Source: Acidimicrobiales bacterium (GTDB lineage Bacteria > Actinomycetota > Acidimicrobiia > Acidimicrobiales > Iamiaceae). Taken from it: a stretch of DNA of 64,000 bases. Shown here piece by piece: positions 5,254 through 42,859 of the stretch; positions within the stretch are counted from its first letter, which is position 1; every line of letters begins with the position of its first letter. Where the stretch lies: the NCBI GenBank assembly GCA_035547835.1, contig DASZTW010000001.1:124001-188000 (forward strand). Direction: 5' to 3'. The position numbers and the translations under genes were made by a program. Below the pieces are notes generated by a model. It did not search any database and was not told the origin of the DNA. It saw only the letters and a program-made list of their open reading frames with translations.

Positions 5254-5679
5254 TCAGCCCGGGATGCTGGAGCCGGTGGTCGCGGACCTGCCGACCTTCA
5301 AGGTGCCGCTCATGTTCGGGTGAACCGTGCACACGTACGTGTAGTCGCCGGCCTTCAACGCCGGGACCTTTGCCGTGGCCTCGTGGCCGCCGGTGATGAT
5401 CTCGGTGCCGACCTTGGAACCCGCGCCCTTGAGCACCCAGTCGTGCGGCGTGCCGGAGTCCTTGTTGTCGAACGTGACCGTGAACGGTTGACCGGCCGCC
5501 ACCGTGAGGCACCGCTGGGTGAACTGGAGGTCCTTGGCGTCGACGGTCACCTTGCCGCCGGTGACCGCCGTGCAGGTGCCGCTCGGGCTCTTCGACGAGC
5601 TTCCGCTGCTGCCGCAAGCGGCGACCACCGCCATCGTCGAGAGCACCAGCACCGCCACCACACCAACACGCCGCATCAT
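5254..5679 (-). CDS. Cupredoxin-domain lipoprotein (plastocyanin/azurin-like)
   Basis: Exported blue-copper-type protein, likely an electron carrier or copper-binding protein on the outer face of the membrane. A hydrophobic signal segment ends in a lipobox-like VVAAC at about residues 17-21, followed by a Ser/Gly-rich tether. The cupredoxin domain carries the expected ligands: a His in GTPHDW, then Cys, His and Met in YVCTVHPNM. I chose the MMRR start at 5679 because it places the signal peptide at the N-terminus; the reading frame stays open further upstream but overlaps the HAD gene. It starts 10 bp after the HAD gene and precedes lhr by 58 bp on the same strand, so these genes may be co-transcribed. 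Confidence 0.85.
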   Translation of the reverse strand: MMRRVGVVAVLVLSTMAVVAACGSSGSSSKSPSGTCTAVTGGKVTVDAKDLQFTQRCLTVAAGQPFTVTFDNKDSGTPHDWVLKGAGSKVGTEIITGGHEATAKVPALKAGDYTYVCTVHPNMSGTLKVGRSATTGSSIPG

Positions 5680-16422: not shown

Positions 16423-16858
16423 GCGTCGCACCTTAGGTCCGCGCCGATCGGCAGCGTCGGGCGCCACGACCGCCCGACGGCTGCGATCGCCCGCGGCAAC
16501 CACCGCCACGATGCCCCCGCGCGACCCCACCAACCAAAGGCCCTCCCCACCACCGCGACCGCCCGACCGCCGCGATCGCCCGCGGCAACCATCGCCACGA
16601 CGCCCCCGCGCGACCCCACCAACCGACGGCGCTCCCCACCACCGCGACCGCCGGACCGCCGCGATCGCCCGCGGCAACCACCGCCACGCCCCCGCGCGAC
16701 CCCACCAACCGACGGCGCTCCCCACCACCGCGACCGCCGGACCAAGCAACCAGGGGCCGGACCAAGCAACCAGGGGCCGGCCAGGCAACCAGGGGCCGGC
16801 CAAGTGACGAGCCGTCGACTGCGGGCCGACCGTCGCCAAGTGCCAACATGCACACGCC
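16423..16858. repeat. 436-bp non-coding block with two tandem repeat arrays
   Basis: This is the only gene-free stretch above 300 bp. From 16483 there are three copies of an 89-bp unit beginning GCGATCGCCCGCGGCAACCA (starts at 16483, 16572 and 16661; the third lacks 3 bases). They are followed by three copies of a 20-bp unit, ACCAAGCAACCAGGGGCCGG (16741, 16761, and a variant at 16781). The block separates the divergent dienelactone hydrolase and lnt genes, so it must hold both promoters or sit between them. Reading frames run through it on both strands, but nothing in them looks like protein. Confidence 0.85.
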
Positions 16859-18391
16859 ATGGGTCGCCTTCGCAGGTTCGTGTCGCGCGCTCGGCCGCGC
16901 CGAGTGGCAGCTGCCGTGGCGACCGGACTGGTGCTCGCCGCGTCGCTGCCGCCGTGGGGGTGGTGGCCGCTCGGGTTCGTCGGCATCGCGTTGCTCGACC
17001 GGGTCCTCGCCGATCAGCCCGTCCGCAACCGGTTCTGGCGGGGGTCGGGCGTGGCGTTCGGATTGTTCGTGATCACGCTGTGGTGGATCCACGACCTGAC
17101 GCTCCCGGGCTACTTCATCGCGGTGGCGGTGTTCGCAGCGATGGCGGGTCTGTGCCTGATGCTGGTGCCCCCCGGCCGCGGCCGCTGGGTGGCGCTGCCC
17201 GCCGCATGGACGTTGGCAGAAGTGTGGAAGGGCGCCTTCCCCTTCGGTGGCGTGCCGATCTCGAACCTGGCGATCGGCCAGGCCGGCGGGCCCTTCGCCC
17301 CGACTGTGCGGCTGTTCGGGGCCGCCTCCCTCACGCTGCTCGTGGTGATCGGCGGCGTCGGTCTGTCGGCCCTCGCCGCGCGGCGTTGGCGGGCCGGCGT
17401 GGCCGCGGTGGCCGTGGTCGCGATCGCAACCGGCGCCGCCGCGATCGCGCCGCGGGGCCACGACACCGGTCGTCCGTTGCGGGTCGCGGTCGTGCAAGGC
17501 GGGGGGCCGCAGGGCACCCGCGCGATCAACACCGACGCCCGCAAGGTCTTCGATCGACACCTGGCCGCGAGCAAATCGATCCAGGCCCCGGTCGACCTGG
17601 TCTTGTGGCCCGAAGACGTGGTCGACGTCAACGCGGACGACCCGACCGCCAGCGAGCACCTCGACATCGCCGACGCGCCGGAGGGCGACGACCTGTCGGC
17701 CCTGGCCCGACGCCTCCACGCCACCGTGGTCGCCGGGATCGTGCAGGACGACGGCGCCAAGCACTTCCTCAACTTCTCCGCCGCCTGGGACCCCGACGGC
17801 CGGCTCGTCGATCGCTACGAAAAGGTCCACCGGGTCCCCTTCGGCGAGTACGTCCCGCTTCGGTGGTTGGTGGAGCCGTTCGCAGGACCGTCGCTCACCG
17901 CCCGCGACGCGGTGATCGGGCGCCGGCCGGCCGTCCTGCACACGGCGGTTGGGCCGCTCGGCGTGGCGATCTCGTGGGAGATCTTCTTCAGCCACCGCGC
18001 CCGCAGCGCGATCGGCGATGGTGGCCAGATCCTCCTCAACCCCACCAACGGGTCGACGTACACCGGGACGTTGGTCCAGACGCAGCAAGTCGCGTCGAGC
18101 CGGCTACGAGCGCTGGAGGAAGGGCGATGGGTGCTGCAAGCCGCGCCGACGGGGTTCTCCGCGATCATCGACGCCGACGGCCGGGTGCACGCCCGGACGG
18201 GGATCAGCGAGCAGCGGGTGTTGCAGTCCGACCAGGTCCGGCGCCGCACCGGCCACACCATCTACACACATGTCGGCGAGTGGCCGGTGCTCGCGGCGAT
18301 CGTCGCCCTGCTCGTGGCAGCCTGGACGCTCGACCACCGCGACCGCCGCGACCGCCAAAACCCTGCGATTCGTGCAGAAGTGGCTGAATAA
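16859..18391 (+). CDS. lnt: Apolipoprotein N-acyltransferase with Ser in place of catalytic Cys
   Basis: Membrane enzyme that adds the third acyl chain to the N-terminal Cys of lipoproteins. The N-terminal half has about six membrane segments, a nitrilase-like periplasmic domain spans about 200-460, and a final membrane helix is near 475-495. The triad in E. coli is Glu267, Lys335 and Cys387. Here the Glu is Glu252 (LWPEDVV) and the Lys is Lys322 (YEKVHRVPFGEY), but the nucleophile position is Ser372 (GVAISWEIFF). The last eight residues and the TAA stop fall inside palindromic repeat copy A, so the C-terminus was probably remodelled by that element. The ATG at 16859 follows the tandem repeat block. 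Confidence 0.85.
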   Translation: MGRLRRFVSRARPRRVAAAVATGLVLAASLPPWGWWPLGFVGIALLDRVLADQPVRNRFWRGSGVAFGLFVITLWWIHDLTLPGYFIAVAVFAAMAGLCLMLVPPGRGRWVALPAAWTLAEVWKGAFPFGGVPISNLAIGQAGGPFAPTVRLFGAASLTLLVVIGGVGLSALAARRWRAGVAAVAVVAIATGAAAIAPRGHDTGRPLRVAVVQGGGPQGTRAINTDARKVFDRHLAASKSIQAPVDLVLWPEDVVDVNADDPTASEHLDIADAPEGDDLSALARRLHATVVAGIVQDDGAKHFLNFSAAWDPDGRLVDRYEKVHRVPFGEYVPLRWLVEPFAGPSLTARDAVIGRRPAVLHTAVGPLGVAISWEIFFSHRARSAIGDGGQILLNPTNGSTYTGTLVQTQQVASSRLRALEEGRWVLQAAPTGFSAIIDADGRVHARTGISEQRVLQSDQVRRRTGHTIYTHVGEWPVLAAIVALLVAAWTLDHRDRRDRQNPAIRAEVAE

Positions 18392-18411
18392 TCGCGGCAC
18401 TTCTGCACGAA
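18369..18411. repeat. Palindromic intergenic repeat, copy A
   Basis: TTCGTGCAGAAGTG (18369-18382) pairs perfectly with CACTTCTGCACGAA (18398-18411) around a 15-nt loop. The left arm encodes the end of Lnt (AIRAEVAE) and the loop holds its TAA stop. It lies between the convergent lnt and dtd genes, where it could also act as a terminator. The rest of the gap to 18526 is C-rich with nothing recognisable. Confidence 0.8.
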
Positions 18412-19024: not shown

Positions 19025-19065
19025 TTCGCGCAGAAGTGGCGACATAGCAGCCACTTCTGCACGAA
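19025..19065. repeat. Palindromic intergenic repeat, copy B
   Basis: TTCGCGCAGAAGTGGC (19025-19040) pairs with GCCACTTCTGCACGAA (19050-19065) with one mismatch and a 9-nt loop GACATAGCA. It lies between the divergent dtd and SDR genes, so it cannot be a simple terminator there. The flank after the right arm (TCGCAAGGTTGTGG) resembles the flank of copy D, so the family extends beyond the stem. Confidence 0.8.
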
Positions 19066-19977: not shown

Positions 19978-20018
19978 TTCGTGCAAGAGTGGCGACATAG
20001 CAACCACATCTGCACGAA
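19978..20018. repeat. Palindromic intergenic repeat, copy C
   Basis: The left arm TTCGTGCAAGAGTGGC (19978-19993) pairs imperfectly with CCACATCTGCACGAA (20004-20018). The loop GACATAGCA is the same as in copy B. It is preceded by CGA and followed by GAGT like copy A. Together with copy D it fills most of the gap between the SDR stop (19935) and the next gene. Confidence 0.72.
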
Positions 20019-20049: not shown

Positions 20050-20090
20050 TTCGTGCAGGAGTGGCGACGTACCAACCACATCTGCACGAA
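20050..20090. repeat. Palindromic intergenic repeat, copy D
   Basis: TTCGTGCAGGAGTGG (20050-20064) pairs imperfectly with CCACATCTGCACGAA (20076-20090) around GCGACGTACCA. Copy D lies 31 bp after copy C. Its outer flanks, CTTCGTG on the left and CGAATCGC on the right, are the reverse of those in copies A and C, so it is probably inserted in the opposite orientation. A short half-match, TGCGATTCGTGCC, occurs once more near 21090, after the next gene. Confidence 0.72.
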
Positions 20091-41575: not shown

Positions 41576-42859
41576 TCAGCCGGCCTTGTACATCGACGAG
41601 GCGTCGATCTTCTCGGCGGACTTGATCGTGCCGTCTGCGTTCAGCACCGTCATCTGGAACGCCGACGAGCAGATGTTCTTCAGCAGCGGGATGGCGGTGC
41701 CGTCGCACTTGAAGTCCAGGCCGCCCGACAAGAAGATCTTGCCGGTCACCTTCTTGAACTGTGCGGTGATGGCGGCCGGCGTCACCTCACCGGTGAACGT
41801 CGTCATGCCCGCCGCGAGGTCCATGACCGACGAGACGCCCGACGAGACGCCCGAGCTGACGAGCGGGTCCGTGTCGACGTTGCCGCCGCCGTACTTGGTG
41901 ACCATCGCGGCATACAGCTGGTCATCGGGGCCCTGGCCGTTGAGGGACGGCTCCCGCGCGCCTTCGAGTGCGTTCGGCAGCGCCTTCACGACGGACTGGT
42001 CGTTGCAAGTGCCGATCACGTACTTCGTGGCCTTCAAGCCGAGCGTCTGATACGCCTGCAGGAACGACGTGCAGAACGTGACGTCACCGGTCACGCCGAG
42101 TGCGTCGGCACCGTCGGACACGGCCTGCTGGAGCTGCGGGGTGAGGTCGGCAGTGCCGGGCGCCGCCGGGATCACCGTGAACTTCACGCCGGCGTTCTTG
42201 AACACGATGCTGCCGAGCGTCTGGGCGGCCTGGGTGGCGGCGGGCACGTCGGTGACGATCATGGCGAACTTCTTGATGCCCTGCTGCTTCGCGTCGAGCG
42301 CGAACGCGCCCAGCGTGCCGGGGTAGCCGCCGGTGATGATGAACTCACCCGAGGTGGTGAGCTCCTCTTGTGACGAGCCGGACACGGCCACGATTGGGAT
42401 CCCCGCGCCGGTGATGATCGGCACACCGGCACCCTGGCCGGTGAACGGCCAGACGACCGCCACGACCTTCTGTTCCACGAACTGGTTGGCGCAGTCCTGC
42501 GCGCCGGCCGGCGTGGCCTTGTTGCCGCAGACGAACAGCTCGACCTTGTGGCCGGCGATGCCGCCCGTGTAGTCGTTCAAGTAGCTGACGCCGATCTTGG
42601 CGCCCTTTTCGGCGAGGCCGGACTGCGCGTCGAGCGCGCCAGCGCCGCCCGCGTCGGTCATCAGTCCGATCTTGATCGGCGTGCCGGTGGCTGCCTTGGG
42701 CGTGCCCAACGCCGCGAGGTTCGCCTTGGGTTGCGTCGACGAGCTCTTGGTCGACCCACTGCTGCTGCACGCAGCTGCCGCGACGAGCAGGAACACGGCA
42801 GCGAACACCGCACCTGTCCAACGAGCGCGGCCGCCCGCGCGAGCTGAGCTCCAGTTCAT
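41576..42859 (-). CDS. Branched-chain amino acid-type ABC substrate-binding lipoprotein
   Basis: LivJ-type receptor of 427 residues. The signal peptide ends in a lipobox VAAAAC (about 26-31), followed by a Ser/Thr-rich tether and a type I periplasmic-binding fold starting at PIKIGLMTDAGG. An SSGVSSGVSS repeat occurs near residue 333. GGAGGAAGCA precedes the ATG at 42859. It is the last of three leftward Liv genes and has its own candidate promoter, so the receptor may be made in excess of the permease. Confidence 0.9.
   Translation of the reverse strand: MNWSSARAGGRARWTGAVFAAVFLLVAAAACSSSGSTKSSSTQPKANLAALGTPKAATGTPIKIGLMTDAGGAGALDAQSGLAEKGAKIGVSYLNDYTGGIAGHKVELFVCGNKATPAGAQDCANQFVEQKVVAVVWPFTGQGAGVPIITGAGIPIVAVSGSSQEELTTSGEFIITGGYPGTLGAFALDAKQQGIKKFAMIVTDVPAATQAAQTLGSIVFKNAGVKFTVIPAAPGTADLTPQLQQAVSDGADALGVTGDVTFCTSFLQAYQTLGLKATKYVIGTCNDQSVVKALPNALEGAREPSLNGQGPDDQLYAAMVTKYGGGNVDTDPLVSSGVSSGVSSVMDLAAGMTTFTGEVTPAAITAQFKKVTGKIFLSGGLDFKCDGTAIPLLKNICSSAFQMTVLNADGTIKSAEKIDASSMYKAG

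Follow-up and report, generated by a model that had tools for sequence, protein, structure and literature searches.

We propose that the apolipoprotein N-acyltransferase (Lnt) encoded in this 64,000-nucleotide stretch of DNA (the window) is probably a working enzyme that has a serine, Ser372, as its nucleophile and that N-acylates lipoproteins through an acyl-serine ester. Lnt attaches the third fatty acid to bacterial lipoproteins, normally via a reactive cysteine. Lnt, which has been discussed as a target for antibacterials, is regarded as unable to work without this cysteine (Cys387). By comparison of homologs, serine is the normal state at this site across the bacterium's order and much of its class, and is no peculiarity of one gene. 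Given how strictly Ser372 is conserved, it very likely acts as the nucleophile in an acyl transfer of some kind. We favor N-acylation of lipoproteins as that reaction because the other active-site residues are conserved alongside the fixed serine, because this is the sole Lnt that we found in the genome, and because genes for Lgt and signal peptidase II are present as well.

The protein and its active site

The gene product is Lnt by sequence and by predicted fold. Its features are listed here, with residue counts from the alignment of homologs that is described in the next section (each row is one protein):

16859..18391, + strand: lnt gene (Ser-type apolipoprotein N-acyltransferase), 510 amino acids (open reading frame; TIGR00546; AlphaFold2 model)
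16925..17353, + strand: LNT_N membrane domain, residues 23-165 (PF20154, E = 3.2e-18)
17480..18232, + strand: CN_hydrolase (nitrilase-like) domain, residues 208-458 (PF00795, E = 3.7e-28)
17612..17614, + strand: Glu252, general base (E. coli E267); Glu in 159/160 Ser rows and 66/66 Cys rows
17822..17824, + strand: Lys322 (E. coli K335); Lys in 226/226 rows
17846..17848, + strand: Glu330 (E. coli E343); Glu in 226/226 rows
17972..17974, + strand: Ser372, aligned with the catalytic cysteine C387 of E. coli Lnt; codon TCG
17978..17980, + strand: Glu374 (E. coli E389); Glu in 222/226 rows and Asp in 4
18050..18052, + strand: Gly398 (E. coli D413); Cys enzymes have Asn or Asp here, Ser enzymes have other residues

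The protein scores 212 bits against the TIGR00546 (lnt) model, compared to a curated cut-off of 132.9. The LNT_N membrane domain is followed by the nitrilase domain, as in the Lnt family, and the nearest sequences with solved structures are all apolipoprotein N-acyltransferases. An AlphaFold2 model (51 sequences; mean pLDDT 94.7, pTM 0.94) leads to the same assignment: the top 24 rows from Foldseek are all Lnt, and VIA-align gives Z scores of 38-40 against Lnt entries across about 460-480 residues, with values around 39-40 for E. coli Lnt. These include two structures of the C387S mutant of E. coli Lnt, which have a serine in the same pocket (8b0m: Z 39.4, 476 aligned residues, rmsd 3.1; 5vrh: Z 38.8). 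Single-domain nitrilases rank after Lnt, with Z of 27 or lower.

An earlier note on this DNA had reported that the nucleophile of the Cys-Glu-Lys triad was replaced by serine, in the motif GVAISWEIFF, with the other two residues intact. This reading holds up. Positions 17969-17986 encode I-S-W-E-I-F, and the alignment places Ser372 on C387 of E. coli Lnt, Glu252 on E267, and Lys322 on K335; the glutamate and the lysine of the canonical triad are present and the cysteine is absent. Overall, the protein resembles E. coli Lnt in its domain order, its fold, and its equivalents of Glu267, Lys335, E343, and Glu389, but besides the serine nucleophile it has Trp373 in place of Tyr388 and Gly398 in place of Asp413, and Trp237 is not conserved in it.

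The DNA around lnt has two kinds of repeats. A palindrome of about 41-43 bp occurs at 18369-18411, 19025-19065, 19978-20018, and 20050-20090, at or between gene ends, and it looks like a REP-type element or a terminator. Its arms (TTCGTGCAGAAGTGGC) have 8 matches, versus 0.66 expected by chance, and the strict pattern has two further sites elsewhere in the genome. The final residues of Lnt are encoded within the first copy, whose folding is strong (z = -6.3). Directly upstream of lnt, at 16467-16804, are tandem repeats (an 89-bp unit in 3.1 copies with 93% matches, and a 20-bp unit in 3.5 copies), which overlap the upstream part of a dienelactone hydrolase frame on the opposite strand.

Distribution and history of the two nucleophiles

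The earlier note had suggested asking how widespread the serine is in Lnt homologs from Acidimicrobiia. We sampled homologs from the order, the class, and the phylum (regions from among the matches listed) and built an alignment of 227 Lnt proteins, E. coli Lnt among them, each 380 amino acids or longer. (Five short proteins were removed before this count, and 8 of 259 loci had no Lnt match.) The sampled rows are well-scoring homologs, and decayed copies may be under-represented; some pairs of rows, such as L005/L066 and L007/L084, share one genome. Among these matches, the nucleophile is Ser in 160 rows and Cys in 66, with one row truncated ahead of the site, and no readable row has any other residue. 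Among the matches listed, the bacterium itself, its family, and its order together give 106 Ser and 1 Cys besides the truncated row; the other orders of the class give 50 Ser and 32 Cys; and the phylum beyond the class gives 4 Ser and 32 Cys. (The remaining Cys row is E. coli.) None of the 217 sampled genomes has both types together, but most contributed a single locus.

We also scanned loci with organism names. The best 80 of 573 relatives are all readable at the site, with 28 Ser and 52 Cys. Going by the titles of the records, the Ser rows among these 80 are from Candidatus Microthrix, Ilumatobacteraceae, Acidimicrobiaceae, Acidimicrobiales, other actinobacterial records, and one record titled Acidobacteria; the Cys rows are from Streptomyces, Kribbella, Microbacterium, Agromyces, other actinobacteria, proteobacteria, and one Nitrospirae. 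These names agree with the group that the earlier note had pointed to, Acidimicrobiia. Another 20 loci from the phylum comprise 19 Cys and 1 Ser.

To place the changes, we built a tree of 185 rows without the catalytic columns. The Ser/Cys label requires five changes on this tree, four of which are forced by well-supported branches. A careful tree of 74 rows also gives five changes, across the 5-95% range of its bootstrap trees, with four forced, and a third tree gives five changes with three forced. The five changes comprise two large Ser clades, two small independent gains, and one apparent reversion to Cys. Clade A is the bacterium's own order plus a few outsiders (83 rows, Ser throughout). 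Clade B consists of other families in the class, whose motifs include ISFEGAF and ISYEGAY, and in the 185-row tree it has 36 Ser rows and one Cys row, L040, which is nested inside it and shares a genus code with L044. The small gains are in two rows from the phylum (family code f80) and in L055, which is from the bacterium's order but belongs to a divergent subfamily. One row, L253, is unstable: it lies at the base of clade A in the 185-row tree and beside clade B in the third tree. Taking E. coli as the outgroup makes Cys ancestral, so the gains run from Cys to Ser; we infer from the trees that Cys changed to Ser about four times and that Ser changed to Cys about once.

Family code f48 holds both Cys-type Lnt (L040 and L044) and Ser-type Lnt (L140), which makes it a natural pair for residue swaps. 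L180 (genome G050, family code f44) is a gene of the type found in the bacterium's own order, with the motif ISWEVFF, and the genus-mate G087 has a Cys-type Lnt (L034); L180 may be due to assembly contamination or gene transfer.

Conservation of Ser372 and the number of Lnt genes

Our case for Ser372 as the nucleophile rests mainly on its constancy: if the residue had no function, Ala, Gly, or Thr should have appeared at the site in some lineage, and in clade A it is Ser in every row. In this clade (83 rows, L253 included), where the tree length is 35.6 changes per column, just 20 out of 445 columns never vary; Glu252, Lys322, Glu330, Ser372, and Glu374 are all among these 20. Within the part of clade A from the bacterium's own order (77 rows), there are 35 invariant columns out of 444, again including Ser372. 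Across the 160 Ser rows of the full alignment, all six serine codons occur at the site: TCG (57), TCC (49), AGC (27), TCT (12), TCA (9), and AGT (6). A single base substitution cannot convert a TCN codon to AGY or back, and there were five such switches between codon sets within clade A (L253 included).

We searched the bacterium's genome (a 22-contig draft that is rated 96.7% complete) with TIGR00546, and besides lnt, which was over the cut-off, we found a weak match in a frame (L002) that we consider to be NAD synthetase-like from its translation, by eye. A search for CN_hydrolase with E up to 1 returned these same two genes and no others. We did not find a Cys-type Lnt in this genome by either search. 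More broadly, each of 17 finished or nearly finished genomes has a single Lnt over the cut-off. (Fifteen of these are from the bacterium's own order, one is from another family with Ser-type relatives, and one is from a Cys-type family.)

The remainder of the lipoprotein pathway is also present. The bacterium's genome encodes Lgt and LspA (signal peptidase II), and the window has two open reading frames with a lipobox:

5254-5679, - strand: likely lipoprotein, cupredoxin-like
41576-42859, - strand: likely lipoprotein, substrate-binding protein

All 17 of the nearly finished genomes have a match to Lgt, which is over the cut-off in 15 of them. Separately, a search across the class gave no Lnt match for 14 of 296 genomes, and family codes f5 and f3 account for 10 of the 14; these bacteria may have lost Lnt or the assemblies may be incomplete.

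A proposed mechanism and its alternatives

Lnt is known to follow a ping-pong mechanism in which Cys387 carries the thioester, E267 serves as the base, and K335 is part of the oxyanion hole (PMC5500890). By analogy, Glu252 would activate Ser372, which would attack the acyl ester of a phospholipid to form an acyl-serine oxyester that is held by Lys322. Glu252 would then activate the alpha-amine of the S-diacylglyceryl-cysteine of the apolipoprotein, and this amine would accept the acyl chain as an amide.

Two precedents weaken the proposal that this is a working Lnt. In E. coli, the C387S mutant forms the oxygen-ester acyl-enzyme, which speaks for the proposal, but does not go on to acylate apolipoprotein (PMC6828757), and it has been described as having low activity (PMC10313180). 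BCG_2279c from M. bovis BCG (Rv2262c/Rv2261c in M. tuberculosis) is a natural Lnt homolog with serine at the position of Cys387, and it failed to substitute for BCG_2070c, which is the Cys-type Lnt; the authors prefer a contributive role and leave a special activity possible (PMC3850990). However, BCG_2279c is a second copy beside a Cys-type enzyme and is split into two ORFs in M. tuberculosis, while here the Ser-type is the only Lnt that we found. Similarly, C387S stalls at transfer, but the natural Ser enzymes differ from E. coli Lnt at many other positions too, and no other Lnt was found beside them in their genomes. A Ser-type enzyme that is the sole Lnt found and is spread across a lineage is what is new relative to BCG_2279c, as judged from these genomes. 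In open-licence papers, including those on serine replacements in the nitrilase superfamily, we found no natural Ser-type Lnt beyond PMC3850990.

Because C387S completes the first half-reaction and not the second, the Ser enzymes would need further changes that allow the transfer half-reaction. A candidate is cavity position 398 (E. coli D413). The stretch from D413 to F416 lines the cavity next to C387 in E. coli Lnt (PMC5500890). Asn or Asp occupies position 398 in 62 of the 66 Cys rows but in just 3 of the 160 Ser rows; among the best 80 of 573 named relatives, the figures are 50 of 52 Cys rows and 1 of 28 Ser rows, one of the latter being gapped here. The coupling to the Ser/Cys state is suggestive only: on average 2.6 of 4 independent pairs change in the same direction and 0.1 in the opposite direction (median p = 0.25, not significant, and four pairs cannot give significance). 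In L040 and L044, the Cys enzymes within Ser clade B, residue 398 is still Glu, so the reversion to Cys did not need a reversion at 398. We also considered position 431, which is Thr in the Ser clades, but the coupling is seen in raw counts only (of four independent pairs, about one changes in the same direction and one in the opposite) and we rejected it. As for the neighbor of the nucleophile, Y388W is one of the inactive variants of E. coli Lnt (PMC5500890), yet Trp is the commonest residue at this position in the Ser rows (100/160, compared to 6/66 Cys rows), so results from single substitutions in E. coli are not simply transferable.

The nitrilase domain of the Ser enzymes has no cysteines in 105 of 160 rows and two in the other 55, and never an odd number. 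Besides the nucleophile, Cys enzymes have none in 63 of 66 rows, one in a single row, and two in L040 and L044. In the clade B rows inspected, the cysteine pair is in the loop that follows the first strand, and it is kept in the nested Cys sequences. These enzymes likely have a disulfide near the pocket. An exported domain that is free of thiols or bears a disulfide may favor Ser. We rejected a disulfide as the general cause of the serine, as most Ser enzymes lack the pair.

The earlier note had left three outcomes for the serine: an oxyester intermediate, an inactive protein, or another role. From the sequences, the oxyester is the best supported of these. If the protein is an active acyl-serine enzyme, its acceptor might be a hydroxyl or water instead of the amine, and the lipoproteins would be diacylated or differently modified. 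We consider this possible but doubtful. C387S does give an acyl-enzyme without acylating an amine, and the Ser enzymes do differ at the cavity position, but the gene is single-copy and replaces Lnt one-for-one in genomes that keep Lgt, its fold and pocket residues are those of Lnt, and the apparent return to Cys in clade B is simplest if the reaction is unchanged. A catalytically dead homolog that acts as a scaffold or chaperone in lipoprotein maturation is improbable. It would fit with the failure of BCG_2279c to replace the Cys-type enzyme and the contributive role favored for it. However, every readable sequence has Ser or Cys at the site and the other active-site residues are kept across a long tree, and repeated switches between serine codon sets would not be expected; nor did we find a Cys-type partner for it to assist, in this genome or in the 17 nearly finished ones.

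Nothing that we found speaks for a sequencing error, a pseudogene, or an accessory paralog beside a canonical Lnt, and we give such explanations almost no weight. In a draft assembly a second lnt could in principle have been missed, and we have no positive support for this. The earlier note had named an error as one way out, and it is excluded: 21 of 24 genomes from the family have an Lnt match, the site is readable in 20 (in G021 the gene is cut at the nucleophile site), and it is Ser in all 20. The note's other way out, a second canonical Lnt, runs against the finding of just two CN_hydrolase genes in the whole genome and of one Lnt in each of the nearly finished genomes, most of them from the same order.

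We therefore return to a working Lnt that N-acylates lipoproteins from an acyl-serine. With some hesitation, we lean towards a broader version of this proposal: that these proteins are a natural Ser-Glu-Lys branch of the nitrilases that is fully active, arose from Cys at least three times with at least one return, serves as the sole Lnt of most of the class, has second-shell changes (at E. coli position 413, for example) that restore transfer, and has an exported domain without a free thiol. If so, a natural Ser-type Lnt across a whole lineage would reveal what the transfer half-reaction truly needs, and the chemistry could be tested by small residue swaps between natural Ser and Cys enzymes. 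The Ser-type enzymes would be expected to resist thiol reagents. It would also bear on whether Acidimicrobiia make triacylated lipoproteins, which is not addressed in the titles and opening lines of abstracts that we consulted on Lnt in this group.
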